Assembly (NCBI GenBank): GCA_903813345.2
Contig: CAIIXF020000005.1
Coordinates: 6,045,375-6,109,374, forward strand
Length of the DNA: 64,000 nucleotides
From: Owenia fusiformis
Lineage: Eukaryota; Annelida; Polychaeta; Sabellida; Oweniidae
Direction of reading: 5' to 3'
Shown piece by piece: positions 4,011 through 29,630 of the stretch. The notes under the pieces are model-generated. The model was not told the DNA's origin, searched no databases, and worked only from the letters and a program-made list of their open reading frames with translations. The position numbers and the translations under genes are program-made. How positions within the stretch are numbered: the stretch's first letter is position 1; each line of letters opens with the position of its first letter.

Positions 4011-7000
4011 CTTGTATGCCCCATCATATTGAGCGACTTCTTCTCCTAGTAGGAAGACCTTCTCTTCTCTCTCCATCTCCTCATCTATAGCAGCATTCAG
4101 GGCATCCCTTACTGTCAGCTGAAAGTAAAAGAAATTTAATTCAACCAATAAGCAAATCAAAACATTAAACAAACAAGGCATTAACATGACAAAATGTCAC
4201 CACCTAAAACAATTTGGTCAATTTAAAGCAAGTTGGAAAATACCTTGTGACATTAAGAAGGTTTGATTTGAACTTCTTAGAACATGTAGATGATTTTGAA
4301 AAAAAAATTCGTCAATTTGAAGCAAGTTGAAAAAATACCTCTTTGACTTTTTTTGACATTGAGAAGGTCATTGAAGGTCAAATGTCAAATGTAAAGTCAG
4401 ATTTGAACTTCTGAGAACATGTAGATGATTTTGAAAAAAAATTAAGTAAATTTGAAGCAAGTTGAAAAAGACATTTTTGACCTTGAAAAGGTCATTGAAG
4501 GTCAAATGTCAAATCTAAAGTCAGATTTGAACTTCTGAGAACATGTAGATGATTTTGAAAAAAAATTAGTCAATTTGAAGCAAGTTGAAAAAAGACCTTT
4601 TTGACCTTGAGAAGGTCATTGAAGGTCAAATCTAAAGTCAGATTTGAACTTCTGAGAACTTGTAAAGTCAAATTTGAACTTCTGAAAAGATGTAGATGAT
4701 TTTGAAAAGCAAGTTGAAAACAGACCTTTTTGACCTTTTTTGACCTTGAGAAGGTCATTAAAGGTCAAATGTTAAATCTAAAGTCAGATTTGAATTTCTG
4801 AGAACATGTAGATGATTTTGAAAAAAAAAATTAGTCAATTTGAAGCAAGTTGAAAAAAGACCTTTTTGACCTTTTTTGACCTTGAGAAGGTCATTGAAGG
4901 TCAAATTTCAAATCTAAAGTCATATTTGAATTTCTGAGAACATGTAGGTGATTTTGAAAAAAAATTTAGTCAATTTGAAGCAAGATGAAAAAATACCTTT
5001 TTGACCTTTTTGACATTGAGAAGGTCATTGAAGGTCAAATGTCAAATCTAAAGTCAGATTTGAATTTCTGAGAACATGTAGATGATTTTGAAAAAAAAAA
5101 TTTAGTCAATTTGAAGCAAGTTGAAAAAAGACCTTTTTGACCTTTTTCGACTTTGAGAAGGTCATTGAAGGTCAAATGTCAAATCTAAAGTCAGATTTGA
5201 ATTTCTGAGAACACGTAGATGATTTTGAAAAAAGTTTTTAGTCAATTTGAAGCAAGTTGAAAACAGACCTTTTTGACCTTTTTTGACCTTGAGAAGGTCA
5301 TTGGAGGTCAAATGTCAAATCTAAAGTCAGATTTGAAGGTCAAATGTCAAATCTAAAGTCAGATTTGAATTTCTGAGAACATGTAGATGATTTTGAAAAA
5401 AAATTTAGTCAATGTGAAGCAAGTTGAAAAAAGACCTTTTTGACCTTGAGAAGGTCATTGAAGGTCAAATGTCAAATCTAAAGTCAGATTTGAACTTCTG
5501 AGAACATGTAGATGATTTAGAAAAAATTGAAGTCAGTCTAAACAGTATTTGTTAAGTTATAGGAAGTTGTAAGAAATTGTTACAGACGCCGGACGCCAAC
5601 CTCCAACCACCAACCGCCGTCGCAAAAAAACGGAGACCATAACACTTTTGGTGGTGACATAAAACAATATGTCACCACTTTTGGTGGTGACATAATGAAG
5701 TGCATGTATCTAGATTGCTATAAACACAATACAATATTATATAATATAATGTATGATATCGATATGAAATATATGTTTATGTTGCATGTTAGCTAATATT
5801 TAAAAGTGGGTTTAATTCTAAAAATTAACTTGTTAAAATCAGTTTCTTTTGTCCACTGCTGTTGTTTTCTGAATGATTAAGACCTACATGTATGCTCAGT
5901 TAAACCCGCTAGCAGAAATAGATTGAATACATGTACAACCCATTTCACTGTTTTATTACGTCAGTAGAACCCCAAAAGTAAGAAATCAGGAGGTTTTACT
6001 GACGAAAAAAAGTGAAATGGGCTGTACTTCTATATCTTCAAGATTCTTACCAGGCATTCTATATGTATGTTTGTTTATGTCAATTATCTGCAAATGACTA
6101 TAATATGCCCATTTGAAGCAGATATATAATTAACAGTAAAAGAATTTGAATAGAATACAATTTAAACCTAATATTTAAAAATAGACCTATAGTGCTGATA
6201 CAAAATAATAAAGGGTGAGTTTTTAAACTAAACAGAACATTCCTACCAAAATGGATTTGGCTATATATACTTGAGACTCTTATCTGATTGATAGATACAG
6301 GGCGTCAAATAAGTCTGTTCTCCCCCCTTAACTTTTTTAATTCAGAAATAACCTAGGGTTGGTATTGGTATATATCATCTTAAAGAGACTAATTTTCTGA
6401 TCACACACCAAATTTCAGAGTGATTGGTTAAATTCCCAATTTTTTAGAGTATTTTTAGTGATGTCCATATTTCACTTTTTAATAGTCTGTATGTCTCCCC
6501 AAGCAGCCCGGATTGCCTCAATTCTACTAAGATATGATCCTGTATAAATCATTCAGAACATTTGATTTAGGCTGTTATAAACTATTTTGTGATGAAAGAT
6601 GCCCCTGCTTCAAAAGCTCCCCTGAATGTAACACATTTTACTCTGTAACGATATTGAGAAACATCGAAATCACCCAATGTTGGCATTGTCACTGCAGTAT
6701 CAAATTTTCACTTTTCACTATACCTTGTAATTTTCCTTGTTTTGACGTAATCAAAGGACAACTACAACCTTACAAGAAACATTGTAGCAATTTTATTAGG
6801 AGGAGTCTATGATCGATTTTTGTTTTGTTATTATAGGTAAAAAGTTCTCTTAATTTTCGAAATGATTTTACCTATTAATTCTGTCATTGGTCCGCCATTT
6901 TTGCGGAAGTTACACTAAAACACAAACTCCATGGAATGAAACAAAATCACTAGAAAAAACATGGCACACATTAAAACCAATCAGATTATTTGATTATATT

Positions 7001-9778
7001 GCGCACATGAATTATTTGCTTCTTAGCACTTACCATTAAAAGCTAACCACAATAAACAAACCTGGCGGAGATTACCCTTACTTCATTATAACGAAATTTC
7101 AGCTCAAACTTGTGACAAGTGCATTATGCATACGCTGGTATGAATAGCCTTGGAGACACTCATTTTGGTAAATATGATTTACAGTGTATACTTTTCTGCA
7201 ATTTGGGGGAGTTTGGTACATTTAATGTTAAAATTCAAGAAAATATGCCAACTATACGACTTATCAATTATTTTGTATAAGCACTGTATTCATTTGTAAC
7301 TATCATTATATCACGGACATCTAATACGTTCTTCGAACTGCCCTGGAACTATATCAATAACAGGACTGGCATCAGATCCAAGTATTTTTCAAGACCGCCG
7401 ACTCTCGTTGGGCTATTTATCCCTATTGACTCAGTTGTTTATATAAATTTACGTACCTTAGATGCTTTGTAATCGACGTAGATAGAAAATATTGTTTCCT
7501 AAATTGTTCTGAAAAGCGATAATTATTACTAAATGTATTTTGAACAGGTCGACTGACCAAAAAGCCGGGATTCTGGCACAAGTCTCGTTCTCGCTCTCAA
7601 ACAAAACGTGAAGAATGTGACGTCACTTCCGAATCATAGCATTCAAAATAGTAGCGTTTAATTTCAAGCACCATCTGTAAAATTACGGTGGTCTAGCGGG
7701 AGAATCCTGGCTTAGCACGCTGGAGGCCCGGGTTCGAATCCCGTACTCGCTTTTTTATTTTATGCAGCTCGTTGAGAATTTCTTTCGAGAAGTGACGTCA
7801 TTGCAAAACCCCCCAGCTTTCGTTATCTTCATCGTCTAGTTACGAATACCACATGTCGATGTGATGTTTTAATTGATAAATACGAATTCCTTACACATTT
7901 CGTTATCTTATTGTGAAATAGCAAACTAAGAGATATCTTTACTCGCTAGGAATTAACATAATATTATTTGAAGCGATTTTAGAAAATTTTGAAACCGCCA
8001 TCTTGGTAATATTGATGACGTGATCACCATCGGTCAAGGTCAGGTCAAAAGTCATCCATCTTGCCATTAGCCCTGCGGATTGTTACCAGTCGACAAAAAA
8101 CGATGAAATCACGTTGAAAATAAAATATACACTTTAAAATTGAGGGTGATCGAATATGACAAGACTCCATTGAATACAGCTGTGCAATTTACAGTCACCA
8201 AGATGAGCTAATTTCGGAGAGATTCGGTGAGATTCGGGAATTAAAAAAGGTAAGCCCTTCCGGTTTCCCAACTTAAAAGTATTTGAAATCCCAGAATTTC
8301 GCCAGAAACATTCTCTCTGACTGTGCATTATATGAAGAAAACATTGCCATTCAAATCATTGTATTGACTATCAGTATGTAAACTCATCATGAATTCCCTA
8401 GTGCATCAGTACTCAAAATAGAATCCAATTTATGCATACGATATGACATCTTTGGCTTACTCGAGTCTCTAGCCAATTCTTGTTCTCCATTTTGAAAGCA
8501 TGCCTTATTTCCGCTATAGCGAAAAGACAAGATGGCCGGCTTGTTATAAAATATTTCTTTCAGTTTTATTTTAATTTTTGTGAGTAAATATCCTGCGAAG
8601 CAGACGAATGTATGAACTAGGACTGCGTGTAAAGATCAATGAAGGCGAGTTTATTATGTTTACATCAATAAAAATAAGACGACTGGGCAATTCGAAGGCA
8701 AATTCAAACAACAAAGAGTGTCTTATTTATATTTTATGGCCACACTCTTTGGCATCTAGAGTCCATTTCACTGCTTCATTTCGTCAGTAGAACGGCAAAA
8801 ATAAGAAATTGGGAGACCATTGTGCAATAATATATGGAAAAGTATATTCATAATGTATATGAATGACATTTGTATATTTCAGATTTTTTAGTTTTTTTTG
8901 TGCAATAAGCCTGTGCCGTCTTGTAATTTGAAGAATTTCAGCCATGTTAATCTTATTGAAAATAACATGGCAGAGAAACATCCAAATATAAGAGGCCACA
9001 CACTTTATAAGCCAAACTAGAAGCAATCAAAGATATACAAATGTCATTCATGTACATTATGAATATACTTTTCCATATATTATTGCACAATGGTCTCCCA
9101 ATTTCTTATATTTGCCGTTCTACTGACGAAATGAAGCAGTGAAATGGACTCTACAGTTGGGGACATAAATAAATGACAGATGGATTTGCTGAAGTGAGGA
9201 TTTCCCATGTTAAAAATAAGAGAATTTACAAGAGGCCATAAATCAGTGGATGAGATTATACAAAATGTAAGACATACAAATTTTAAGGGATATGTATCTA
9301 GACAATATTTGAAATTATGGGCTTTCAGACCACCATAATTAGGAAATGGTGATCGAAAATCGACCTGTCATTTATTTTTGTCCCCAACTGTATGTCTGAT
9401 GTCCTTTTATTTTATTGAGAAATAAAGATTGACAACTTGACGAAAGTGATTCTAGATATCAACATTTTCAAATCAAAATATTCCAGAATGTCACACGGTA
9501 ATTTAAATCGCTGACATCTCAATGACAGTCAATGTCACCATCTGAAAAATCGTTGCTGATGATGATATCAGATATGAAGAAATGGATCTCACCATCGTCC
9601 CTGCCACTGGTCGTGTTGAGTGGAAACTACGCTGGATCAAGGCAGGAAAGGATGCCTGAAAATAAATAAAAACACATTTAACATATGCAACGTGTTCTAA
9701 AGGAATATTGCACTTGCGAGATAACTCAATTCTATAAAAACGTACCCGACCAAATCGCCGAAAAATTTTGGCTGCCAT
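4011..9778 (-). CDS. PDHB: Pyruvate dehydrogenase E1 component subunit beta, mitochondrial (5' part)
   Basis: PDHB encodes the beta chain of the thiamine-dependent E1 of the mitochondrial pyruvate dehydrogenase complex. Three minus-strand exons are supported. Exon 1 (9778-9746) encodes [11 protein letters not shown], a basic start of a mitochondrial presequence. Exon 2 (9655-9593) contains Q-R-S-F-H-S-T-R-P, typical presequence character. Exon 3 (4118-4011) starts L-T-V-R-D-A-L and contains [17 protein letters not shown], a PDHB hallmark. All junctions are phase 0. An in-frame ATG ten codons upstream (9808) is an alternative start. Intron 2 is about 5.5 kb and filled with repeats. The exon 3 donor (AAG|GTTTGG) is weak. 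The rest of the gene, including the catalytic region, is not recognised here and should lie left of the window, unless this is a broken copy. Confidence 0.75.
4188..5697. mobile_element. Non-autonomous transposon with an internal minisatellite (full copy)
   Basis: The left end near 4188 carries TGACAAAATGTCACCACC and the right end near 5690 carries CACTTTTGGTGGTGACATAA, giving short inverted termini. Between them lie about nine to ten imperfect tandem units of 115-160 bp. Each contains AAGTCAGATTTGAA, GAACATGTAGATGATTTTGA, CAATTTGAAGCAAGTTGAAA and GACCTTGAGAAGGTCATTGA. The 3' end adds a GC-rich segment (TTACAGACGCCGGACGCC, then CGGAGACCATAACA). The layout recalls the minisatellite-bearing pearl-type elements of bivalves, but the family is not identified. 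It sits in PDHB intron 2. Confidence 0.75.
5700..7590. other. Non-coding PDHB intron 2 sequence
   Basis: No exon is seen. A small inverted repeat occurs at 5939-6022 (CCCATTTCACT against AGTGAAATGGG), related in sequence to the larger one at 8757-9153. At 6299 the motif ACAGGGCGTCAAATAAGTC resembles ACAGGGTGTCAAATAAGTC at 33693. This is probably one end of a transposon family whose other end I did not find. Confidence 0.5.
7682..7856 (+). repeat. tRNA-derived SINE-like unit with Pol III boxes
   Basis: An A-box-like TGGTCTAGCGG (7689-7699) and a perfect B box GGTTCGAATCC (7731-7741) have tRNA spacing and are followed by TTTTTT (7751-7756). The T-arm pairs in four of five positions, but the acceptor ends (ATTACGG against ACTCGCT) do not pair, so this is not a working tRNA. 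The tail at 7790-7855 (AAGTGACGTCATT..CAAA, then TCGTCTAGTTACGAATACCA) recurs at 61302-61374. That recurrence supports a SINE rather than an old tRNA gene. Confidence 0.5.
8757..9153. repeat. Inverted-repeat element with arms of about 120 bp
   Basis: TAGAGTCCATTTCACTGCTT at the left mirrors the right end (AAGCAGTGAAATGGACTCTA). The arms continue through GGGAGACCATTGTGCAATAA and its complement. The middle contains TCAGCCATGTTAA and AATAACATGGCAGAGA, also found inverted near 16430-16470, so the family has other copies in the window. Confidence 0.8.
9154..9390. mobile_element. MITE (Tc1/mariner-like, TA target site)
   Basis: Starts CAGTTGGGGACATAAATAAA and ends with TTTATTTTTGTCCCCAACTG. It is flanked by TA on both sides (9152-9153 and 9391-9392). 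It is 237 bp long and non-coding. It abuts the right end of the palindrome at 8757-9153. It lies just downstream of PDHB exon 2 in the direction of transcription, within intron 2. Confidence 0.85.
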
Positions 9779-9808
9779 TTTAAACCGGAAGTTTAAAGTC
9801 CGTAACAA

Positions 9809-10062
9809 ATTTTAATTATAAAATAAAATAAGGGAGTTGATTGACTTCAAATTTTATACACAATAATTTAAAATATACTTATTTGCTTCTTAGAATAATA
9901 AAATGATTTTTTCTATGTTTTGTAGTCCAGCAAGAAATAATAAATATGACCAATGAAACTTCGTAATTACATTACTAAAAATTTGTGACGTCAGCTATCA
10001 GAATTGACCAATCAGAGACATCACTCGTGAGAGCTCCTTCCGTCAGCACGCCATCTTGGTAG
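9809..10062. promoter_or_regulatory. Divergent promoter of PDHB and SLC25A3 copy 1
   Basis: About 250 bp separate the most upstream PDHB ATG (minus) from the donor of the SLC25A3 5' untranslated exon (TTGGTAG|GTGAGT, exon end 10062). Visible motifs are CCAAT at 9950-9954, a perfect CRE palindrome TGACGTCA at 9986-9993, a second CCAAT at 10008-10012, and CGCCATCTTGG at 10049-10059. The last matches the YY1 element common just downstream of start sites of nuclear mitochondrial genes. The PDHB start codon also lies in a YY1-like AAAATGGC context. Joint regulation is inferred. Transcription start sites are not determined. Confidence 0.6.
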
Positions 10063-10194
10063 GTGAGTGGAAAATTTGTTGCGAAATTACTCCTTGAACT
10101 ATGGGTACAGTGTAGAAATCTACTTATTCTTATATATTGTAATAAAACATCTATTTGTAATGCAAACGTACGTATATTTTCAGGTGAAATCAAT

Positions 10195-13100
10195 ATGTAT
10201 CGGTCCTTCATCGATTCGTTTAAAAATGGGTCTTTCCAGGCTCAATGTGAGGGCTTGAAAGTCAATGAGAACAGAACCATTGCTGCGGCTTCAGCAGGTA
10301 TGTTTTACGGTTCAGTTTCCTTTGTATGTTATTTAATTCTTTGTGAAAATACATTCTCTTAACTAGTGTTCATTATTCTAGATTCTCTTTTATTATAGCC
10401 CAGTGTTACTATCTTGCAGCTAAGGATTAAATTTCCAAAGACATTGACATTGAAACCGGCATTGAAAACACTCTGATCAAAAGTTTTGACCTGTCGACTA
10501 TGAATTTCACCCCTGCCAATATTAACTGTGCAAAAAATTAAAAGATAAAGCAAGTACCAAGATTGTATTTGATTGAGTTCCACGCCATCCTGAAGTGTGG
10601 TCTCGTTTGCATGTCTGGTTTAAGGTGCTATGGAAGTTAACAGGAAATGACAAAACAGGAAGTGACAATTTTTTTTGCATTTTTGGACATTATTTGAACA
10701 AAGATAACAGAGTTCTGGTTTGACCTCCAGTCAATTTAACTAGTTCCAAATACCATTTACAGGACCAGCATCACAATGTTCATGGTCAGAATGACCCTAA
10801 ACATGATGAAATAACCTTTTTAGCCCTTTGAAAATGTGACTGAAAAATAGCTAAAAGTAGGAGCGTAGGGAAGGTCACTGAACAGAATCTTTTGAATTTT
10901 TCAGAAAATGTGCCCAATATATTGCTCTAAATGATACAATCTTTGAAAATTTGATATCATTCATAGAAAAAGAAAAAAAATGAAAAAACTGATTTGAAAA
11001 GCGGTCTATTTTCCTTTTTATGACCGCCATTTTTGTTTAAGACAATTTTCTAAAATTTCAAAGATTGTATCAGTTAGAGCATTATATTGGGCACATTTTC
11101 TGAAAAATTCAAAAGATTCTGATCAGTGACCTTCCCTACGCTCCTACTTTTAGCTTTTTTTCAGTCACACTTTCAAAGGGCTAAAAAGGTTATTTCATCA
11201 TGTGTAGGGTCATTCTGACCATGCACATTGTGATCCTGGTCGTGTAAATGATATGTGGAAATAGTTAAATTGACTGGAGGCCAAACCAGAACTCTGTTAT
11301 CTTTGTTCAAAAAATGTCCAAAAATACAAAAAAAAATTTCACTTCCTGTTTTGTCATTTCCTGTTAACTTCCATGAGACCTTAATCTTACACTGTATATC
11401 AGATATACAAAAGTCGATATTTTCAGCACCAGGGTTACACCTACTTTTACCGCAATTGATTCTTGCATTCATTTGCCATGTTTTTTGCATGGTGAAAAAG
11501 GTGTCGGCAATCTTAACTTGCAGAGGTGTTCATTTTAATTTAGAGATGATGTACTTTACAATCTCCGCAATACGATTATTATATAAAAGTTTTCACATGT
11601 CAGTCAGATTATTGTTGAGTGACTTAAAAAAACATTTGGATATGCCATTTTATGGTGTAGCAATTGCTTTAGTTCTATATCATGATATGACTTGATTCAA
11701 TAATACCATGATATCATGTCCACATGTGGTCTAATTCTCCCGTAAACTTTGGTTTAATAACTATTCTGGTGATATGTCCTGTTACGGATACTTCATCCAT
11801 TTTAACAGTTACTGCGGTGGCTACCCTACCCTGCGAACAACCTATGAAATACCAGTTTTACATGTCTCATAACTATTAATACAAAACCTCTAGGTGCTTT
11901 CCACATTTTATTTTCTTCATCCTGAGACAACCCAACTATTTTACCACTTTCCTTTTCTCAACGGTGAGTTCTATATCTCTAGGCACTGCATGCTGTGTGC
12001 TGTTGGGAGTAAATCTGACTTCATTCATTCAAATGGGTGTACTGTATATTGTGCATACTTAATTTCGCTCTTGTGAACAATAATGTATTGTATATGTTGG
12101 CTAACTCAAAACTCAAATGATTAATAATGCTCCATAAATTATAAAGAATTTGCATGCAGTATATCCAAAGCTTTCCAATGTTTATTATTTGCTAAGGTAT
12201 GGAGAAAAATCTACTAAATGTATTTGTTATGTCATTACTATTTCTTACAAATCTACTAACAGTTAAGTGAAATGTATTTAATTTCATCAATCGAATTTAT
12301 CTTTGAATTGAATTAATAACTTGACTTATACATGATACTTGAAGTTCTTAATCCTAGTGAATTCCTGTGTTAAATATAGATTGATAAGATATTCTACTTT
12401 TAGATATATGAGAGCTTGTAAATGAAAAGTTTCAAAGTACATACTGTATATCATTTTTCAAAGAGATAAATGTATATTATATGATTTTTGCATCCATTCC
12501 TACATACAAACAGTAAAAACATATAGAATGAGCTGTATACAATTTTTTGATCTCTTTAAATATCTCAAAAAGGAACTTACATACATGTATTTTTTTATAC
12601 ATTGTTAGATCAATGTTCTGGTGGGAGGGGGGGGGGTATCCTTGTGACTTACAGATCTAAATGTCAGTGCTTTTGCCGAGCCACAACGGCATTCATTTAG
12701 AGCCTGGTTTAGTAATTATTCATTTTACTCCCTTATTTAGTTTTAAAGCATGTATATTTGTTACCTTATATAACCCTACCTGTTCCACAGTTGGTTGGTT
12801 TTTACATTAATAATGTTATTTATACCAGTTTGAATATTGATGTGCATTAATTCAATAGTAACACTACATATATAAGTTAAAATACTGAATTGTGTAAAAT
12901 AAAGAACACAAAATTTGATTTGATCTGTTTATGATTCACACCATTATAAATATTCTTATTCCAACTTGCAGGCAGTGATGAAGTAGAGTTTGGATCAACA
13001 AAGTACTTTGCCCTTTGTGGATTTGGAGGTATCCTCAGTTGTGGTATCACACATACAGCAATTGTACCACTGGATCTGGTGAAATGCCGCATTCAAGTAG

Positions 13101-15594
13101 ACCCTGACAAGTACAAGGGCATTGTAACTGGCTTCAGAGTTTCTCTATCAGAAGGTGGCGTGAGAGAACTTGGGAGAGGATGGGCTCCCACTCTCGTAGG
13201 CTACTCCATGCAGGGACTATGCAAGTTTGGTTTCTATGAAGTATTCAAGAACCTTTATGCCAATATGTTAGGAGAGGTAAGAAATGCTATCTTTGTTATT
13301 ATTAATCTTGATCATTTGAATGTAATGAGAAAATTTGATTAAAATGGAACAGTTGAGCAAGACACCCACACAGGGCTTGTATTGATGTCATCCTGTTTAT
13401 GACTTAGACTTCATCCTTGTTTTTCTGTAATTATTGCATGTAGAAAAGGTGTTCATGTAAAAATTGAATTTTATATTTTATATATCTGCAGAGGTGCAAG
13501 TACATGTACACATAGTTTTTATCAATCTAGAGCTTTTCATACTGCTTATTATGAAAGGAATTCAAAGGTTTCATGAGCAACTCTATTTGGTTATATAAAA
13601 TGGGTATCATTATGAATAAGAAATATTTTATGGCTATTTAAGATGAGAATGGCAGCTATTGGGTCTTTAAGGATCAATAATAGGGAGTTTAAGCTTGCAA
13701 TGTTTTACAATTTCACAACCTAAACATGAATGGAAAATATTTAAGCCATGCATTTGTATGGGCGATTGGTCATACGTGTAGGTTGGCGTTTCGATTTTAT
13801 ATGCAAGCTTAAACTCCCTAATAATCAAACTGACTGCCAGAGAGGCATCCCAAAACTGTTTTATTAGGAGTATATTTATTTGACCAGTAATCTTTGATAA
13901 GCAGCTTGAGTTCTGAGAATGTTACATTTCACGATTGTTTTCAGTGTTGATTTTGATTAATATTATTTTGATTATTCTAATCTTTTTTTTTTTGTTTTAG
14001 GAGAAAACCTTCCTTTATAGAACAGGTCTTTATTTGGCTGCCAGTGCATCTGCAGAGTTCTTTGCTGATATTGCACTGTGCCCCATGGAGGCAATCAAGG
14101 TGCGTGTGCAGACTAACCCATCCTGGGGTAGGACACTTAGAGAGGGATTCCCCAAGCTTATGCAAGAAGAGGGAGTCAATGGGTAAGAAAGACATCTTAT
14201 GAACACCTACATTTTTTTAATAAATCAAACTTTATGTAGAGTAGAGGGAAACATTCTGTAATCAGATTAGCAGGGGGTTTCATTAGCAGCAGGCAACAGG
14301 TGATTTTCACCGGTTGTTTTCACAACATTGTCTGTTTCAGGGACTTTTCAACTTTTTCATGTTAATAAGAAATTCTAGCAAAACCCCTGGATTAGTGTCA
14401 TTATTTTTCTTTTTAACCTTCAAATTTTCTCATAAGAGGCTTACGTACTGTGTAAATTTTTTTTAAAGGATTTACCTATAACTGGTTTGAAATCTGTAGC
14501 TTGTTTGCCTTTCCTTTTGAGTTTCTAGTTTCGTTGTTCACATTCTCAGAATATGTGAAGTTACTTCTCAAATAGATACCCAATGATCTCCCCAGTATTA
14601 AAGCAAATGCCACTGGAAATTGAAAATAACATATCAACCTGTTGAAAATCAGATATTTTCTGTCAAAAGGATAACAGTATTGACATTACTGTTACCTTAT
14701 ACAATTGCAGGGTTTTAAAGGAATACATGTTGTATTTAATATGATGTTTCATTTTATTTGATTGCAGTTTCTACAAAGGACTTGTCCCACTCTGGAGCAG
14801 ACAGATCCCATACACAATGATGAAGTTTGCATGCTTTGAAAGGACAGTAGAAGCACTGTATAGTTATGTAGTACCAAAACCCAGATCAGAATGTAACAAA
14901 CAAGAACAACTTGTTGTAACATTTGTTGCTGGTTACATTGCTGGTGTATTCTGTGCTGTTGTGTCCCACCCCGCTGACACCATTGTATCAAAACTCAACC
15001 AGGAGAAGGGAAGCACATTCATGGAAGTTGGCAAGAAACTTGGCCTCCTCGGTAAGTTTACAATATAGCATTGAAATGTCCTACTTATACATATAGTTGA
15101 AAAGCACTTGATAATGAAGTATGCAATACTAAAATGTTGAAATTAATTAAATATGCCGATTTGAATAAAGAATTGAGACTTAAAATATTCAGAATTTATT
15201 ATAACTTTGATACAGTTGACATGAAACTTTTAAAATTGTCACCAATATACAAAAAGAGCATCACTGTAAGCTGACTTAGTTGGGTGGCAACACTTAGATA
15301 GGATTTGATTTGGATCAATTGTCATTTTTGCCTATAACTAAAAATCTAAGGAAAATCATAATTAGTATGAAATGATGAAGATGGCTGTAATGAAATACAG
15401 GCTAAAATACATTTATTGTTATATTTGTAGGTATGTGGAAGGGTCTATTCCCTCGTATCATAATGATTGGTACACTGACCGCCCTACAATGGTTCATCTA
15501 TGATGGTGTGAAGGTCTACTTCAAGCTGCCCCGTCCCCCTCCCCCAAGCATGCCAGAGAGCCTCAAAGCAAAACTTGCTGCAAAGGAGCAATAA
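10195..15594 (+). CDS. SLC25A3: Mitochondrial phosphate carrier protein, copy 1
   Basis: Imports phosphate with protons across the inner mitochondrial membrane for ATP synthesis. Coding exons are 10195-10297, 12972-13276, 14001-14182, 14768-15051 and 15431-15594. Phases agree and give 345 aa (the human protein is about 360). A 5' untranslated exon ends at 10062. The three carrier repeats show P67-L-D-L-V-K72, P164-M-E-A-I-K169 and P265-A-D-T-I-V270. The third lacks the basic residue, as is usual in phosphate carriers. The N-terminal segment [10 protein letters not shown] is a mitochondrial leader-like stretch. The C-terminal [12 protein letters not shown] is characteristic. The second coding exon has no intron where copy 2 has one. 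Intron 1 holds a 0.8 kb palindrome and intron 2 holds a 140 bp MITE. Confidence 0.95.
10620..11393. repeat. Long palindrome, arms of about 340 bp
   Basis: TAAGGTGCTATGGAAGTTAA at the left mirrors the right end (GTTAACTTCCATGAGACCTTA), and similarity continues nearly to the centre around 11020. Examples are GGAGCGTAGGGAAGGTCACT near 10860 and its complement near 11120. Open frames inside it are by-products of the repeat. It is a fold-back element in intron 1 of SLC25A3 copy 1. Confidence 0.85.
11394..12960. other. Remainder of SLC25A3 copy 1 intron 1
   Basis: AT-rich sequence with a poly-G run near 12625. No exon, RNA gene or clear repeat was seen. Confidence 0.5.
13681..13820. mobile_element. 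140-bp MITE
   Basis: Starts TAGGGAGTTTAAGCTTGCA and ends TGCAAGCTTAAACTCCCTA, perfect 19-base terminal inverted repeats with a probable TA target site. It lies in intron 2 of SLC25A3 copy 1. Confidence 0.85.
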
Positions 15595-16068
15595 CTTGTG
15601 TGGACTTTAGGAAATTTTAATGTAAATTGTATAATTAGCCAATAGTGAACTTGACACAACCTTTTTATAGTCATGTATGTAATATGAGGTTTATAAGAAG
15701 GCTGTGTCGAGTTCTGATACTGTATTCAGGGTATTGAGTAGCAGGATACCTAGTATTCAGTGTCATAGACTGTACAAAGATGGAGCTACTGTCTGTATAA
15801 TAGGAGTTGAATGAGAATATTTATAGAGTGGAGTGCAGTTACTATGGTTACAGACTTTGTTTATAATAGTGTTTTAACGCACAATATGTCATATTATTGT
15901 ACTCATCATTGATGACCTTTCACCTTCATAATTTATGAATGAAACATGCTGCATGTGGCTTTTATCCATTTCCTCACACAATTTTAACAGTGAATCCAAT
16001 GACTTTGTTTTAGACCAACTAAAAATAGAGTTAAATGTATGCAAGAAAGTGTAAATTATTTTGGCAAC

Positions 16069-16074
16069 AATAAA
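16069..16074 (+). terminator. Poly(A) signal of SLC25A3 copy 1
   Basis: AATAAA lies 475 bases after the stop codon. It is the first canonical hexamer I see downstream. The resulting 3' UTR would be about 0.5 kb. Confidence 0.55.
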
Positions 16075-16274
16075 GTAACATGAGAACCAGTATTAAACAT
16101 ATTGAGTTGTTCTTTTATTTATCTGTGTACCTCATTGCACATATCTGAGGCTGTTTTGTGATAATTGTCTGTCAAAAAGCTGCAAACCAGGAAAACATTG
16201 CAATTATTATGGCCAATTAAGAAGGCGGATACTTTATAAGGAGACCATGCACAAAGGTATAGCAAAAGTACAAT

Positions 16275-17040
16275 CGGATTCAAAATTCTATTTATTACCT
16301 TGAACAATCAAATGACCATATTGCAACAGTATATGAAAAAATAGAAACAAATGTATAAGACCGAACTTTTTTATATCCTATTGTTTTGTAGTTTGGTTAT
16401 CATACGTGTGGCATCTTATATTTTGATGCTTCTCTGCCATGTTATTTTCAGAAAAATTAACATGGCTGAAACTCCCTAAATTACCAAAGGCCACAGCTTT
16501 ACTGCACATTATACCTAACTATCTGAAATATACGAAAGTTAGGTCTCGTACATGTTTCTATTTTTTTTAGCTCACATGGTGAGCTATTGCAATCACTCAC
16601 TTGGCCAGTTTTAAAACCTCTGTCAATAGGATTCCCGTTTCAAGTTAGTTTTGTTCAACATCAATACAGAACACTTCCTTATGACTCCTGGTTCAAAAGC
16701 TCGCCTATTTTCAAAATGGTCGTCTCTTTTGTCTCGCGAAATTTATTTTTCGCCAATTTCTTAGCTTTACAAATAATTTCAGGTGTCCTGCATTGTAAAA
16801 ACCTTGTCACTGTAAAGAGTAGTTGTATGAAATACTTTTGTTACAAAAAATCGGCAAAAATTACATCCATTTTTTTTATTTTATTTTCTGCCATTTTAGC
16901 CATCATTCACTTTTGAGCAACACCATGTGAGCCCAGTACCCACGGTACTATTTATTCATAATCTCGAATATGGTCATTTGATTGCTTATTTTTTGAATTC
17001 AAAGTACTAGATAGAATTTTGATTCTGACTTATGTTCAAT
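16275..17040. repeat. Inverted-repeat element enclosing a second element
   Basis: GATTCAAAATTCTATTTATT...CAATCAAATGACCATATT near 16275-16325 is mirrored at about 16966-17035. Inside, 16569-16936 has its own termini (AGCTCACATGGTGAGC at the left, CACCATGTGAGCCCAGTACC at the right), the pattern of a common invertebrate MITE type. A block at 16430-16470 matches the centre of the palindrome at 8757-9153. The layout implies nested insertion. Confidence 0.6.
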
Positions 17041-17239
17041 TCTACAAGGGGTGATCCAAAAGTCCTGCGTGCAATACTGGTTTGAGTCCAGGTTTAATGT
17101 TGGCCTAACAAAGGGGAGTCCAGATTCAGTAGATACTGGAGCAGTTAATTTTCTCACTGGGACGAAGCATCCTGTTTTGTATTCCCAATACCCAAGAACG
17201 GTATTCCAAAGGACTTGACCACTAAACGTTGTAATTCTG

Positions 17240-18107
17240 TAAAGCTAAGTTCACTTTAAAGCGGCGTGCAAAGCCGAGCGCCATCAATTAAAGCTAAGTT
17301 CACACCAACGGCGCTTTAAAGGGTGACGCATATCGTTTAGCAAATCGAACGCTCGTTTCTGGTGTTGCTCACCGTTTAGTATAAAAGGCCCGATCCCGGA
17401 ATAATACTCAAGGGTTCACAGGTTCGATGTTGTTGTGTCAACACCTCTAACTGTTATATAGCATAAGTATATTATAGATCGTCACACATTTATAAAAGGA
17501 TGATTTTTATTTTGACAAATCAATTCCACATTTATGGGTGAAGTTTCAGGATCTTTTATTGGCATCTAAATTTCCCCATAACGTAATAGCACACAGCTTG
17601 GCATATGAAATATCCTACAAATGAAACAAAGCAAGACAAACCGGTTTCTAATACAAGGATTTATATTATATTGGCTGTTGTATTCTTTGAACGCAATCAC
17701 TCTTTGGATAACGTTTTCAAAATCATTATAAACGGATTACTTTATCTCAAAGACAATTTCAATAAACTGGATTTTACAGAACTCCCCTTATTTCTTAAAA
17801 ATGGACTGATCCAGTTGATTCGCCTGGAGCCGCCATATTGTTTTTATACGGGATGCTAACATCCTCCTTGGGATGCTAATCGGAACCCTTTAAAGCACTA
17901 TCAAAGCGCCGTTGGTGTGACCTTAGATTAAACAAAAATGACGGCGCTTTGCTCGCCGATTTAAAGTGTGCTATTCGCCGTTTGCGTGAACTAGGTTTTA
18001 CTATAAAAGCTGAAATTTGCACGCCGCTTTAAAGCGCTATCAAAGCGCCGTTAGTGTGGATTTAGCTTTTGCGCCATCAAAGCGCCGTTGGTGTGAACTT
18101 AGCTTTA
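17240..18107. mobile_element. MITE with nested inverted-repeat copies
   Basis: Starts TAAAGCTAAGTTCAC and ends GTGAACTTAGCTTTA. Related terminal blocks (GCTAAGTTCACACCAACGGC near 17292, and inverted AAAGCGCCGTTGGTGTGA near 17900, 18040 and 18080) recur inside, so the unit looks like one MITE inserted in or duplicated within another. It lies between the two SLC25A3 genes. Confidence 0.7.
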
Positions 18108-18845
18108 GGGGATTCCCTATGTTGTCTAATTTAACATATCCAATTTAGTCTCCAGTGCTCTTATTGCAGACAACGTCACCATTGATCTTCACTTCGTCTT
18201 TGCGATGACTGATTTTTTTTCTTAGATATTTGATTGTACCTCGTGAAACTCCACAGTCCAAATTCGCTTTTCGGTCATTTTTGGTCACTTTTTTTCATGA
18301 TGAGGTTCATATCTTCATTTTCACTTTGTAAACTCTTCTATCTTATATCCGAGTTTTTCAGTGTTTCAATTAGAATTTCTGTTTGTCCTTGTGAGGGTTT
18401 GAAGACGTCGCGAAGAGATTCTTTTGGCAGAACTGTATTGTTTGTGACACTGTCCCAGCTAGGGCAATTCTCTAACCGCCATATTTTCTTCCTAAATATG
18501 GAGAGACGTTTTGTGATTTTCGGTGCACCTAGCATATTTCTCGTGAAGGAGAATACAATTTAAAGAACGGATCATCTATTTTTCTTGGGTCTTGAGCCAT
18601 TCTTGTATATTGCCAATTGATATTTTGCAAAACGTGAAAGGGAAGTGATATCTTTAAATAATCAATTGATGTAAAATACAATTTACTGAAGCAAAGTATT
18701 TAGTCTCATTCGAATCCTATCACATCTCTCTTGGTAACGCAATTGTAAATGATTGTGAACGAGATGTTACCGGTGTGTACTATAATGTTGTTTTCCCAGC
18801 TAAATCAGTTAACGCAGTTTTCGATTTGAAGGTTACTTCGGCATA
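18108..18845. other. Sequence between MITE and SLC25A3 copy 2 exon 2
   Basis: No convincing exon was found. A first exon for copy 2 should lie here or further left, ending in phase 1, but I could not identify it. The flanks of the MITE (CACTAAACGTTGTAATTCTG before, GGGATTCCCTATGTTGTC after) may belong to an older transposon that it split. Confidence 0.4.
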
Positions 18846-18891
18846 ATGAGTTGTGAAATGTCAGACACTTGTACGTTTCTCTATATTTCAG

Positions 18892-21800
18892 GTAGTGATG
18901 AGGCTCCTGCAATGGAATTCGGGTCCATGCAATATTTTGCTTACTGCGGGCTAGGGGGCATCATCAGCTGCGGGCTTACACACACGGCTATTGTCCCCCT
19001 GGATCTGGTAAAATGTCGCATACAAGTCAACCCAGACAAGTACAAGGGAATCATCACTGGATTCAAAGGTATGCCCCAAACCTGATCGCCTTGAAAAACA
19101 AGACCGTCTAAATGTGACAAAAATTTCTGTCATTTTAGGAAACTTACCAACATCCAAAGATAGCAATGTTATTGTACATTTACTAAGGATATGATGAATC
19201 TCACTTATCATTATTAAACTATTTGAAAACTGCAGTGTCTCTGGCGGAAGGTGGATCGCGAGAGCTGGTGCGAGGGTGGGCGCCGACAGCAATAGGCTAC
19301 TCTATGCAAGGACTCTGCAAATTTGGCTTGTATGAAGTGTTCAAGTGCCTCTACTCAGACCTATTAGGAGAGGTGAGCTCAATGAATAAGTTCAAACTGA
19401 AAAATAAATTAATCTCAGTGACGTACTTACAAGATGAAGTAGCGATTATGCTCAGATCAGCATTGCGTTGCTGTATCATCAGACATGAACCTTTTCACTG
19501 AAATTCTTTCCTTTGCCTTTATCATTCATGTATATTGTGACTGGCAGATTTTTAGAACCTAAGTTCCTAAAATTAACAAGGTAGCGTCCTTACATAAATC
19601 TATACGTACATGTTTTTGTTTCAGGAGAAGACGTTCCAATGGAGAACATCCCTTTATTTGGCTGCCAGTGCATCTGCAGAGTTCTTTGCTGATATTGCAC
19701 TCTGCCCCATGGAGGCAATCAAGGTGCGTGTGCAGACCAACCCATCCTGGGGTAGGACACTTAGGGAGGGATTCCCCAAGCTCTTGAAGGAAGAGGGAGT
19801 TAACGGGTAAGTTCACCTAAGATTTCAGTTTGATTGAATGATGAACGGTGTGGGACAGAGTAAGTGCCAAGCCCGGGGTTCCAAGGCAAACATCAGAGAC
19901 TGGGGTGTATATAGCGAGCCAAGATAGATTTCGTAAACCCAATCCTTACTTCGATCTTTTGTAATGTTATTAGAAATTGGAATGAACCTGTTGATGACGA
20001 TTCTAAATCTTTAGTGCAATACATTCTAGAACTGAATGTTTTCTAAGCATAATACTTGATAATGTGTATCATTTTACTAATTATATTTAGTCCTATTTTG
20101 TATTTATTCTAGTTTCTACAAAGGACTTGTCCCACTTTGGAGCAGACAGATCCCATACACAATGATGAAGTTTGCATGCTTTGAAAGGACAGTAGAAGCA
20201 CTTTATAGATATGTTGTACCAAAACCAAGGGCCGATTGTAACAAGGCAGAGCAATTGGTGGTGACGTTTATTGCTGGTTACATTGCTGGTGTATTTTGTG
20301 CCATAGTTTCGCACCCAGCAGACACAATAGTCTCAAAGCTCAACCAGGAAAAGGGTAGCACATTTGTCGAAGTTGGAAAGAAGCTGGGATTTCTTGGTAT
20401 GAATTAGATTCATTTTTTTAAATAATCATTTAATGATGTAATGTTTAACTTTTATGTCAAGCTCGGTCAGTCGTAAAACACGAAAATGAGTTCCAATTTG
20501 ATTTATTTATTTACATATTTTACATATTTACGAAACGAAATTTACATTAATTATATTTAGTATAAACATTTACGCGGACAAAATAATTATATTGTTATTG
20601 CACGCAATAATGCATTGGGGGAATACCCAATGTCGTGGACGGAAACATGAATGGATTGTCACTCAACCCCGCTTCGCCTCATAAATCAGTGTCCTCTATG
20701 ACTCCACGAACAATCTTGTGTATTTCAACAAACGACTCTAGTAAAATTCGCTGGCGTTTATGATACTCGTCGAGGATTTCTTGATCATTTTCATTTAGGT
20801 CACTTTGTGCTAACTTGTTGATATGTAGGTTTACATGCGGTTCACGGAGAGCTTGGTGGTAATCACATTCCTCCACAATGTCTTTATATGCACCTTCAAA
20901 TGCCCCCGTCTTACCTGCATCAGTAATCCCTGGAAATACGGAACATGCATTCATTAGTTATTCTTCATTGGCTGTAAAGTCGTACAAGAAAAATTTAATT
21001 TGAACGGAAGTGATCTAATTTGAGAATGGAATAATTTTCATCATTCGGAGTCCTCATTGTACTCTGTGAAGTTTAAAAGACGCGAAATCGAAATCGCCAA
21101 TGGTTTATTTGGTTAGTTCTATGCTTGAGATATCTATATCTTGAGATATCTGAATTGTGCATATTATATTACCATAAACACTGTCGGTGTTTGATTCAAT
21201 CTGCTTATATGTCATTGCTTCTGGTACTTTATCTGTGTTATTGTTCGTCTCAAAGGCATCTGATTTCTTTGGCTTTCGCCTGAACGGACCCCTCAATTTT
21301 GTCCACTGCTTTTGAAGAAACTTTAAACACATTCTGTACCTAAAAAAACACAGTAATTATAATCCAGACCAACAAAGGCAAATACATTGTTCTAGGATAT
21401 TTAAAAAACAGAGAAAGATTTTACATATTGGTGACTAACGAATCAACAATAAAACAGTTGTAGATACTTACTTTTAGATTGACTTGTTTCCAATCAGCAG
21501 TGAAGAATCTTCAATATATTTAAAAATTACCAGATACTTTTAAAATGTCGAGTCAGATGATTGTAGGAAAATATGATCTCTATAATTTCTATATGCTTTG
21601 TCTTGTTGACAATAAGAGTTTCTTAGTAACCAAGAGCAATTGTTAGAAAGACATCTGATTGGTTACAAAGACAATGAAAGTCAATGGAAACACGTGACGT
21701 TATGGTTAAATGCATGATTTCATACTGATGACATTGACTTGATATTGTTGCATAATATGACGTCATGCATGAGTTACCATGGAGAAATAATCTTGATTGA

Positions 21801-22849
21801 CAATAAATACGTACACACTCATGTTGGTCGAAGAGGACTCAATCATCGATCTACTGTATACACTGGAAACTGCAGTGTTGTGGATGACGGTGTTAGGCGA
21901 CTGATCAAATCATTTTAGGTCAATGAGAGGGCAGTCCATTTTGTACTCTTAATTATCGTCCTGCCATTTGATCTTAATTTTGAATTATGTGGATTAAGAT
22001 CATGACTTTACGAAGACTTAAGGATCAGTCCCCCCAGTGAACCACTTGAAAATACATGTATGAAGCATGAAACCATCTAATTTGGATGGCATCACAAAAT
22101 TGTTTCACTATGAGGTAGTATTGCTTCAAGACTATTGATCCCCCCCCCCTTATCTACTTCTCCAAACATTACCTGGTGAAAAGAAGATAGGAGGGGGCCC
22201 TGGGTCTTAAAGCAAGACTACGCATGAGGTATTATGTTTTGAAATGTTGTCTCATGAACTCAATATCCAATGTAGAAACATTTACATAAAAGGTGCAACA
22301 ATTAGTGCAGAGAGGCCATTCAACGATCATGGACCAGTGTCAAAATATATTCAAGTTTGGCTATTTCATCAAGACTAACGTATATTTTTATTTTCTCCAA
22401 AGAAACCCTCTAGGTGAACATTATTTTTGCTGATATTCCTCTTGAAACTTGATGGATCTTAAAAATCTATAATAGGACTCCCTTTATAGAAGCTTTGAAC
22501 TGAATTTACACTTCTTAATGCTGAAATTGATAGTTTATCCATACATTTTAAGAAAATAGGTATGTCAAAGATGTTAAGCCAAATGTTGCCCTGATAGCTC
22601 AGAAAAAGTAAAACATTTTGAATTTTCTCTCTACAGACCTTGTTGCCCCTTTAACTGCTCAATATCATGTCCGTGTTACTTGCAGGTATGTGGAAGGGTC
22701 TTTTCCCTCGTATTATAATGATTGGAACATTGACTGCCCTACAATGGTTCATCTATGACGGGGTCAAGGTATACTTCAGAATGCCCCGCCCACCCCCACC
22801 AGCAATGCCCGAGAGTCTCAAGGCTAAATTGGCTGCAAAGGAACAATAA
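18892..22849 (+). CDS. SLC25A3: Mitochondrial phosphate carrier protein, copy 2 (first exon not found)
   Basis: Tandem paralogue of copy 1, same strand. Coding exons are 18892-19068, 19236-19372, 19625-19806, 20113-20396 and 22686-22849. They encode the carrier from the S-D-E segment to the stop with consistent phases. All three carrier signatures are present (P-L-D-L-V-K, P-M-E-A-I-K, P-A-D-T-I-V). The first listed exon starts in phase 1, exactly compatible with exon 1 of copy 1, so either its own first exon was missed or exon 1 is shared. It has an extra intron (19069-19235) between G-F-K and V-S-L that copy 1 lacks. Parts of exons 19625-19806 and 20113-20396 are nearly identical to copy 1, whereas the other exons differ at many synonymous sites. 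The last intron hosts a minus-strand gene. Confidence 0.9.
20679..21332 (-). CDS. Small unrecognised protein nested in an intron of SLC25A3 copy 2
   Basis: Two coding exons join in phase: 21332-21173 (inside an exon reaching 21339, acceptor TTTTTTTAG) and 20929-20679 (acceptor TTTCCAG). A probable 5' untranslated exon ends at 21472 with donor AAAA|GTAAGT. The product is 136 aa. Its N-terminus is basic (K-F-L-Q-K-Q-W-T-K-L-R and R-R-K-P-K-K), and its C-terminal half is acidic and helical with E-E-C-D-Y-H-Q-A-L-R and L-N-E-N-D-Q-E-I-L-D-E-Y-H-K-R-Q. There is no signal peptide or membrane segment. I do not recognise the family. The matching splice signals, phases and protein-like composition over both exons support a real gene on the strand opposite its host. 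Confidence 0.65.
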
Positions 22850-22874
22850 CTGTGTGAACATTAGGAAATTTAGA

Positions 22875-22880
22875 AATAAA
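22875..22880 (+). terminator. Poly(A) signal of SLC25A3 copy 2
   Basis: AATAAA lies 26 bases after the stop codon. Another AATAAA-like site follows near 22892. A very short 3' UTR is implied unless a later signal is used. Confidence 0.45.
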
Positions 22881-22929
22881 AGTAGGTCATAAATAAATGT
22901 TGAGATGTTATCTGGAACTGTGTTATGAA

Positions 22930-23560
22930 GGTTTGCCACGACCAGTCAAGTGATGTTTCAAAAACTAGACTATCGCACACTTGTACAACTTTACGCAATT
23001 TCTAATTTTGGAGACAGTGTTGGTGCTTTGGTGGACAGTCGAGGTAGTTAACAAATGTATTTGTACATTAAAAGTTATTTGTGGATTAAATACTCATCCA
23101 ATATGGATTGTAGCTTTATACAATTTGTTATATTGAAAAAAACATCTACTGTTTTGGTCGAAGATCGAAATATAAATGTCATTGGTATGCCATAAAATGT
23201 TAAAACAAAAGGTTTCATTGATCAAGAGTGATCCAAGGATACTTCATTCTAACTAGTAAGTGTGGTCATTGTGCTTAAAGAATTCGTCATCATATCAATA
23301 CCTCAGAGACGTTTTTAGGAACTGATATACATTTCTATTTACTAGTAACCTCACCACCTTTTGCTATCAAGGATAAATTGGCTATAATTAGGATGTATAA
23401 GTTGTAGTTAGTTACGTTACGGTAACGCACAGCTGTAAAACATGTATATCCGAACACCTCTCTGATAAACACCTGCTTATCCGAATACTTTTTTCCGGTC
23501 CCATTTTCCTTCCATCGACTTCAAAAAAACTTAAAATGTGAACACCTACATATTAAACAT
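22930..23560. other. Intergenic sequence
   Basis: No gene, RNA or strong repeat was recognised between SLC25A3 copy 2 and the MITE upstream of the receptor gene. Confidence 0.5.
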
Positions 23561-23565
23561 ATACA

Positions 23566-24080
23566 CACCGGTGGAATACCCTGACAGCGGTAAAGTCAGT
23601 TACCGTTGTCACAAATGGCGGCCATAGGTTTGTATTTGATTCGATTTTCACTAACTGGATGTTTAATAGAGCACCTAGTGGTAGAATTAATCAGAACAAT
23701 CTCTCTACTCATTGTATAGTTAAATATGTTTTATCATCGAAATAACGCTTTTGATTTTACTGACAGTCAAAATATGACACGGGACAACGGATACTTGATA
23801 TACCCTTTCTGTTACTTATTTGAAATTCAGATTCCGTTGTCATTGACGATATGGAGAGCGGTATATTGTAGGGATTCACGACCACATTTGATCAAAATTG
23901 GGATTTCATATAATATACATCACAAGAGCTTAATACATACACAAAATCAACGAAAAGGTCCAATGAAATGAGAACGAAGTGATTAAAGAGTTGAAGCGAC
24001 GATTACGTCCGCCGTTTGTGACAACAGTATCTGATTCTGACTTTACCGTTGTCAAGGTGTTCCGGTGTGATATAGAGCTT
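23566..24080. mobile_element. DNA transposon family A, copy 1
   Basis: The left end (CACACCGGTGGAATACCCTG, then GGTAAAGTCAGTTACCGTTG and CAAATGGCGGCCAT) is the inverse of the right end (CGTCCGCCGTTTGTGACAAC, then TGACTTTACCGTTGTCAAGG and TGTTCCGGTGTG). Related copies are at 35484-35905 and 48618-49535. The copies share the internal motif AATAGAGCACCTAG. No transposase is seen. Confidence 0.75.
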
Positions 24081-26049: not shown

Positions 26050-27210
26050 AACTGTGTCTGTAGAGTTTTCTCTCTGATTTCATGTTTAATTTCGTGTGCA
26101 TTCGTTTAGTAGTCAATCTACCCACGAAAATTGATCGGTCGGAAAATGTTGGGTTTTTCACATTTCCTTTGATCATTTTTCCTCCAGTTGCCTAAGAGTG
26201 TCGATTATTTTTCATGAGAATATGTTTCTCTATACTACACAATTTAGGACGGTTGGAGATTAATGAATATTCAAGTATTTATTGTAATTTAAAAAAAATC
26301 AGGAATGTGAGTTGTCAACTCGAATGTACGTTGTCCCTGTAATTGAAATTCATGAGATATACATAATATTAAACAATGTAATGATTTCATTTCAAAATTC
26401 ATTAAGGTTTTAATGAGTAACACGTGATCTTTAACGAACATGTTCAAGTATCCTTTTTACTTTTTCATTTTATGAAAGTATTGTTGTGGTGGTGGCCAGA
26501 GTGGTGGTTAATTTGTGCCCATTTGGTGTTAGCTTCCAGCCCAAACTCCCATCCAGTGTCTCGGAATAGAATATGTTGAAGACTAGCACTGCCACGGAGG
26601 CTCCTTCCAGCCCGTTTGATTATTTGGCCTCTGTAGCTTACGTTTTGCTAGTTACATTGATAGATAGATCTACTGATCTATACTAGCTTATTGAATATGA
26701 CTTCTTAAAAGCTCGTTTATGATATATCTGGAAAGTTTCAATAGTTCAATCAAATTGAAGTAATTCTGTAATTGTTCTGTTTAAATTTTAGATGCATCTG
26801 ATCGGTGTTATTTATATATTTTAGTGTTATGAAAAATAAGTTGTCTGCATTAGGGTTAACTGTGAATTGAGTAAGTTCAATAGACAACGTACATTCGAGT
26901 TGACAACATTCACTTATGATTTTTTAAATTATAGCCAAAATGTTAATACTTATTAAATCTTCATCAGACCATTGTGCTGTTTAAAGAAACATATTCTCAT
27001 GAAAATCGTCGACACTCTTAGACGACAGGGGAGGAAATGATCAAAGGAAATGTGTAAAAACACAACATTTTCCAACCGACCAATTAATTATATGGGTAGA
27101 TTGACTACGAAAAAATCGAGCACTGTTCGAAAATCTTTTAACGTTAAATGTCTTCCTAAACGAATACACAAAAAATCAAACATGGAATCCTTAATGGATT
27201 CCTCAGATTA
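26050..27210. repeat. Fold-back element, partly duplicated downstream
   Basis: The left arm (CATGTTTAATTTCGTGTGCA, AGTCAATCTACCCA, GGTCGG..GAAAATGTTG, then AACTCGAATGTACGTTGTCC) is mirrored by the right arm around 26880-27190. The right arm carries an extra block of about 35 bases (AACGTTAAAAG region) absent on the left. No coding frame is seen. Confidence 0.75.
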
Positions 27211-27733
27211 TTTTTTAAAACCTACATAATTGTCTTTGCTTCAAATCGGCTAAATAGTGACATCGCACATTTAAAGTGTACTACGGTATATTTTGTCACT
27301 GTACCTTGTCGATGGTTAGGCGTGTAATAGCGCAAATAAATAAATAAGTATAAATAAGAGCACATTAATAGTCGTTGGGGAGGAGCAATAAATAAATTAT
27401 TGAAGCAGATGTAACGTCGCATAACCCCACCCCTTCCCATATTAGCCTGCCCAAAGGGGTACTTATGTAGTTTTGGTATAAGTTTGGTGACCCTAGTTAC
27501 AGTTAACTACCTAGAGAGGAATAGTATAAGTTCTCAGAATATAAGTGTATAATATAGATGTCACACGTTAAATACATCCAACAAAATATAAGGAACTAGT
27601 TGGTAAAATATTTAAGTTATATATAAGTATTATATATTTACATACAGGTTTACACATTCTACGAAACTCAAGCTATCCTAGTATCTTATTTATCTATAAA
27701 TCAATCAATCAATAAATTAGATAAATTATTAAT
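26268..27733 (+). repeat. 1.6-kb tandem duplication, unit 1
   Basis: ATTCAAGTATTTATTGTAAT at the start and CAATCAATCAATAAATTAGA at the end recur in order at 27901-29350, with only scattered differences over about 1.45 kb. The repeat period is about 1.62 kb. The unit contains the right part of the fold-back element at 26050-27210. No coding potential is seen. Confidence 0.9.
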
Positions 27734-27900
27734 AATTGAATAAATGTTAATTACTCAGATGCGAGTAGGTAGTTATCAGTTTCGCCACCAGGTGGCTGAT
27801 TCGGGGGAATTTACATGGCAGGGTATTACAAAATTCCATTAAACTTGAATATGCATGAGTTTTAATGGTTCACTTTTCATAATTACCTTTATGACTTCAT

Positions 27901-29350: not shown

Positions 29351-29630
29351 AATAAGTAATAAGGAGTAAAATTAAAAGCCCTTCCAGTTGGATGGTCGTG
29401 AATGGCATGGTTTCTATTCACAGATGCGATACATATTTCCTGGGACCAATTCTTTTCGTTCCACTACTGCCCTTGTCGGGGTTCCGCTACCACGCAGATT
29501 TGAAATACCATTGTTAACCAAATATTATCATGGTCATTATGGTTTTAGGTAAAAATATAAATATCACAGATCAACCAGTATCACAGTCATAGATCGAACA
29601 CATGCGTATTTGCATACTTTGTGTAGAGTA

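Follow-up and report, generated by a model that had tools for sequence, protein, structure and literature searches.

We analysed a 64,000-nucleotide stretch of the Owenia fusiformis genome (NCBI GenBank assembly GCA_903813345.2, contig CAIIXF020000005.1, positions 6,045,375 to 6,109,374 of the forward strand; hereafter the window, whose own coordinates are used below), which holds two old tandem mitochondrial phosphate-carrier-like genes of the SLC25A3 type, copy 1 and copy 2, both on one contig. The SLC25A3 label is one that we assume, following an earlier note made from the sequence alone and sequence features of the family. Between these paralogues there is a block of strongly reduced silent divergence, formed by two short tracts in adjacent exons, and the conversion signal is real, statistically strong, confined to exons and of a known kind. 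The probable cause, in our judgement, is DNA-templated interlocus gene conversion between the neighbouring paralogues that was confined to exons; the DNA template, the number of events and their date are what we infer, and that copy 1 was the donor and copy 2 the recipient is no more than a guess.

Silent divergence along the two genes

Silent divergence was expressed as the Nei-Gojobori proportion (pS). Three of the 311 codons (the first two, where alignment is uncertain at a 9-base N-terminal indel, and the stop) were left out of the divergence, permutation, tree and third-position GC (GC3) counts, and the permutation test also excluded methionine, tryptophan and codons whose amino acid differed within the pair compared. 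Between copy 1 and copy 2, pS dropped to 0.10 within exon 3 (14029-14155) and to 0.12 where exon 4 begins (14768-14878). Elsewhere it was much higher: exon 2, taken in two parts, gave 0.82 and 0.65, the first 10 and last 9 codons of exon 3 gave 0.50 and 0.71, the remainder of exon 4 (14879-15051, where 39 of 174 nucleotides differ) gave 0.70, and exon 5 gave 0.56. Overall, 101 of 259 silent codons differed; the best low-divergence segment (14010-14853) had differences at only 7 of 77, a score that was reached by none of 200,000 permutations, so synonymous divergence along the coding sequence (CDS) is not uniform.

The earlier note had described two blocks as almost identical, silent sites included, with flanking exons that differ at many silent positions. 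This was borne out both for the blocks themselves (14031-14182 against 19655-19806, 143/152 identical; 14768-14875 against 20113-20220, 104/108 identical) and for their patchiness, with pS of 0.10–0.12 in the blocks versus 0.50–0.82 elsewhere.

Conversion or constraint

The same note had held that purifying selection alone could not keep silent sites identical in this patch only. The corresponding alternative is that the region stays alike in all copies with no conversion at all because its silent sites are selected for splicing signals, RNA structure or codon use, and an intronless third copy of the gene on contig C1 (the retrocopy, described below) served as a third taxon for weighing it. 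Some regional slowing is possible, considering that silent divergence between copy 1 and the retrocopy is 0.084 in a patch at 13205-14964 that covers three copy-1 exons (hereafter the core) versus 0.324 otherwise, with differences at 9 of 135 codons in the patch (140 of 200,000 permutations). A uniformly slower core is enough to account for this patch (scaled tree, p = 0.29), as would be exchange between copy 1 and the retrocopy.

Constraint should, however, scale all branches alike, and it is only the copy-2 branch that shortens so strongly in the tracts (0.745 in the core outside them, 0.041 inside). Silent differences between copy 1 and copy 2 fall from 34/57 in the core outside the tracts to 4/49 inside, whereas those between copy 1 and the retrocopy are similar in the two compartments (4/57 and 5/50); copy 2 and the retrocopy differ at 33.5/57 outside. 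In the trimmed tracts the three copies are about equidistant (4/49, 5/50 and 5/49). One scaled tree for the core codons outside the tracts and the tract codons, restricted to codons with the amino acid and first two bases common to all three copies (63, 60 and 117 kept), was rejected (likelihood ratio 12.34, df 2, p = 0.002), a p value that, like the others bearing on constraint, is optimistic because the limits of the core and tracts were drawn from the data first and the neighbouring core codons were chosen post hoc. A cruder comparison of flanks with tracts was weaker (p = 0.029 in the tree test, 0.034 in a separate computation).

The trimmed tracts (codons with first bases at 14029-14155 and 14768-14855) had no replacement differences at 164 sites, versus 22 at 183 sites in the remaining core; with tract 2 extended to 14878, there was one among its 85 sites. 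No Rfam family reached its gathering score in 9000-24000, and the predicted folding of the copy-1 CDS was nothing unusual when compared with codon-shuffled sequences in 6 segments (z between -1.52 and 0.50). Silent constraint alone was rejected with the retrocopy as third taxon, in line with the earlier note, and we regard it as a very unlikely explanation. Because only the copy-2 branch shortens in this way, copy 2 acquired its identity rather than conserving it.

Tract shape at the exon 3/4 junction

Tract 1 spans 14029..14156 in copy 1 and about 19653-19780 in copy 2 (3 of 128 nucleotides differ), and tract 2 spans 14768..14857 and about 20113-20202 (1 of 90 differs), all on the plus strand. 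The left edge of tract 1 is placed at about 14029, with differences at 9 of the 28 preceding nucleotides. Between tract 1 and the splice junction, the 3'-terminal part of exon 3 forms an unconverted island (14157..14182 in copy 1, 19781-19806 in copy 2, plus strand), in which 6 of 26 nucleotides differ (14159, 14160, 14163, 14165, 14177 and 14180), compared with 4 of 218 in the trimmed tracts taken together (14029-14156 and 14768-14857; Fisher p = 1.3e-4). Drawing tract 2 out to 14878 gave 6/27 versus 7/237 (p = 6.9e-4), and changes specific to copy 2 were likewise concentrated in the island (4/26 versus 2/218 in the tracts, p = 0.0013). A two-tract model fitted better than a one-tract model (lnL -395.96 versus -404.70, a gain of 8.74 for two extra breakpoints), with limits in exon coordinates of 14028-14158 and 14181-14857; the start of tract 2 may accordingly lie in exon 4 or already in the final two bases of exon 3. 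Columns before 12990 were excluded from this fit, in which the search for two tracts covered 60 columns around the one-tract fit.

The blocks therefore do not meet in the mRNA: identity is not continuous across the exon 3/4 junction. The earlier note had proposed such continuity, and here it fails, as 6 of the 9 differences in its first block fall at 14159-14180, within the last 24 nucleotides before the splice site. Its observations on the intervening introns were correct: their lengths are 585 and 306 bases, and they are dissimilar (local alignment score 21, reached or exceeded by 113 of 300 shuffles, whose mean was 20.3). Introns 2 and 4 of the two copies aligned no better than shuffles either, and the stretch upstream of exon 2 gave a hint at most (score 28 versus a shuffle mean of 22.4, reached by 11 of 300 shuffles). 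Of the note's two-part proposal, conversion is well supported, but a spliced RNA or cDNA donor is not, because it needs continuity across the junction and an island of sequence resembling copy 2 stands just before it. Nor is the skipped intron diagnostic of an RNA donor, since without intron homology DNA-templated conversion would also be limited to exons.

A trivial origin for the blocks, by recent exon-level rearrangement or by an assembly or polishing error, could draw on their shortness. Both genes lie on one contig, however, the blocks sit inside exons and hold changes private to each of the three copies, the retrocopy included, and DNA searches with exons 3 and 4, in which only the best candidates were scored, gave these copies and one relic. 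We consider this origin extremely improbable.

An intronless copy and the choice of donor

The retrocopy was found by searching the genome itself. It lies at C1:51091344-51092264, is 85% identical to the copy-2 protein and has no internal stop. In the surrounding locus (L003), all 1038 bases of the copy-1 CDS are matched as one stretch (91.6% identical, one gap), and the match continues through the spliced 5' untranslated region (5'UTR) exon and into two 3'UTR stretches of copy 1, so that the retrocopy with its UTR remnants covers L003 about 4196-5506 (G000:C1 about 51091195-51092505). As this copy is intronless and carries the spliced 5'UTR exon, spliced copy-1 mRNA has at some time undergone reverse transcription in the germ line, and an intronless donor has existed. 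Relative to copy 1, the retrocopy has a one-base deletion in the presequence, and the frame of the carrier domain is still open. Its divergence from copy 1 (0.21 silent, 0.043 replacement) suggests a protein under selection, and therefore possibly a functional retrogene. The exons around it belong to a gene encoding a sperm-tail PG-rich repeat (one of the two exons tested matched).

The exon searches also yielded a relic on contig C11 (L004 4892-5003, minus strand, G000:C11), which consists of exon 3 only (112 nt), stops two bases before the exon end, has small insertions and is closest to the retrocopy. It was tried as an outgroup and is too short to root the copies. Upstream of copy 1 (9151-9393), and again upstream of the retrocopy (L003 3540-3781), there is a 243-bp repeat whose ends are inverted. 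Its two instances are 93% identical, and it probably represents a family of short DNA transposons.

Considering that a reverse-transcribed copy exists and that both tracts lie near one junction, we keep an event with an intronless donor as a rival, albeit a rather unlikely one. Here spliced mRNA, cDNA or the C1 retrocopy would have paired simultaneously with the two exons; the intron of copy 2 would have been looped out and kept, and loop-directed repair would have restored the recipient sequence next to it, leaving the 26-nt island. Consistent with this, the retrocopy covers the whole CDS together with the spliced 5'UTR exon and parts of the 3'UTR, distances among the three copies are nearly equal inside the tracts, both tracts terminate near one splice junction, and the low-divergence patch shared by copy 1 and the retrocopy spans three copy-1 exons. 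Against it, identity is discontinuous in the mRNA, with differences in the island and a two-tract model preferred; the shared patch fits a uniformly slower region; and loop-directed co-repair is a conjecture, which adds a step. Copy 2 also retains its 306-base intron (19807-20112), although an exonic break need not remove it. According to a report on human cells, repair of an intronic break from spliced RNA removed the intron, and RNA-templated repair elsewhere leaves no scar (PMC12065846). The kept intron in copy 2 thus speaks against synthesis across the junction, not against the use of RNA within one exon. In a more elaborate form, which we find quite doubtful, copy-1 cDNA or the C1 retrocopy would have acted repeatedly as the intronless donor, homogenising exons 3 and 4 of copy 2 and maybe exchanging with copy 1, with introns looped out and donor sequence lost beside the loop.

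Proposed course of conversion

Under DNA-templated conversion between the neighbouring paralogues, a long period of divergence would have come first, until silent sites were nearly saturated and the introns had no detectable homology left. Sequence of one copy would later have replaced that of the other over about 128 bp within exon 3 and roughly the first 90 bp of exon 4. Pairing would have been limited to exons because only these keep enough homology, and a break in tract 1 before the splice junction is expected if pairing stops near a heterologous intron. As the donor would have halted at the unrelated copy-2 intron, confinement to exons does not point to RNA. Either two tracts were converted, or repeated conversion kept the core alike while the remainder drifted. 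No signal of direction was obtained from GC3 (Fisher p about 0.6 for each of the three copies), and counts of unique sites per copy did not polarise it.

Several points weigh against this explanation. Two tracts in adjacent exons require two events or one patchy event, and tract 2 starts no more than a few bases from the exon edge, which a spliced donor would also produce. The remainder of exons 3 and 4 is more than 20% different (9/28, 6/26 and 39/174 nucleotides in the three segments), a poor substrate for DNA pairing unless repeated conversion maintained homology. The patch between copy 1 and the retrocopy at 13205-14964 is itself low in divergence, which spoils a clean story. Finally, the two-tract gain of 8.7 lnL is only moderate after a penalty for two breakpoints, and the limits of both the island and the core were set after viewing the data.

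Comparison with known systems

Interlocus (ectopic, non-allelic) gene conversion of tandem duplicates, with concerted evolution, is among the closest known systems (PMC3924837). The likeness lies in short blocks of collapsed divergence within diverged paralogues on the same chromosome, with private changes after the event; here, unlike there, the paralogues are more than 20% different in nucleotides of exons 3 and 4 outside the blocks, and the blocks occur only in two adjacent exons. Repair or conversion templated by spliced RNA or cDNA (PMC12065846, human cells) is similar in that the blocks are exonic and flank one junction, and the retrocopy shows germ-line reverse transcription. It differs in that the tract here is not continuous across the junction and the recipient intron was kept. 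Yeast work on reverse transcripts offers a further comparison for conversion by spliced RNA or cDNA. The C1 copy resembles a processed retrocopy or retrogene (PMC3449122) in its lack of introns, its UTR pieces and its open carrier frame; unlike that case, it is a third copy outside the observed pair, and a target-site duplication was not established. Judged by titles and the beginnings of abstracts, no publication among those listed dealt with conversion of this carrier gene, which does not prove that none has been printed.

Exon-confined identity of old paralogues is readily interpreted as RNA-templated conversion. The exact shape of the tracts, together with a retrocopy in the same genome, provides a way to test that interpretation and reveals its weak points. 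Were the involvement of an intronless donor to be proved, this would be a natural, heritable rewriting of a multi-exon animal gene by spliced-RNA information with no intron loss.

Gene models

All exons are on the plus strand, and the reading frames of both models are open, each ending in a stop. Copy 1 begins with an upstream 5'UTR exon that ends near 10062 and, in spliced form, is included in the retrocopy match, followed by exon 1 (10195..10297), which carries the start codon and an N-terminal presequence and was defined by splice sites and reading frame. Exon 2 (12972..13276), supported by GT-AG sites, an open frame and Mito_carr domains, is one exon equivalent to two of copy 2. Exon 3 (14001..14182; GT-AG sites, open frame), intron 3 (14183..14767), exon 4 (14768..15051) and exon 5 (15431..15594, including the stop codon) complete the gene. 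In copy 2, the first recognisable exon (18892..19068) is the counterpart of the first part of copy-1 exon 2 and is separated by a phase-1 intron from the second (19236..19372). The counterparts of copy-1 exons 3 and 4 are at 19625..19806 and 20113..20396, with the intron noted above between the tracts, and the last exon, with the stop codon, is at 22686..22849. Three stretches of Mito_carr repeats (PF00153) were found in each of the three proteins (copy 1, copy 2 and the retrocopy). A PDB search returned 10 matches, all to other carriers.

The phase-1 intron of copy 2 (19069-19235) is exactly missing from copy 1 and the retrocopy, which reflects either precise loss in copy 1 or gain in copy 2; a gene structure of this carrier gene that would polarise it was not found in the parts of the literature searched. 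No significant match to copy-1 exon 1 was detected upstream of copy 2 (best E 0.17). The copy-2 frame is open upstream of 18892 to 18813, with an ATG at 18846, and copy 2 might start at this ATG or begin with a different exon, conceivably exon 1 of copy 1, which has the same phase.

Other repeats in the window

Self-comparison revealed five long inverted repeats (palindromes; 10620-11384, 8757-9153, 38640-39235, 48866-49413 and 60060-60919), one of which lies inside intron 1 of copy 1. There is also a direct duplication of about 1.48 kb (26268-27736 and 27901-29360), whose two units are 96.3% identical.

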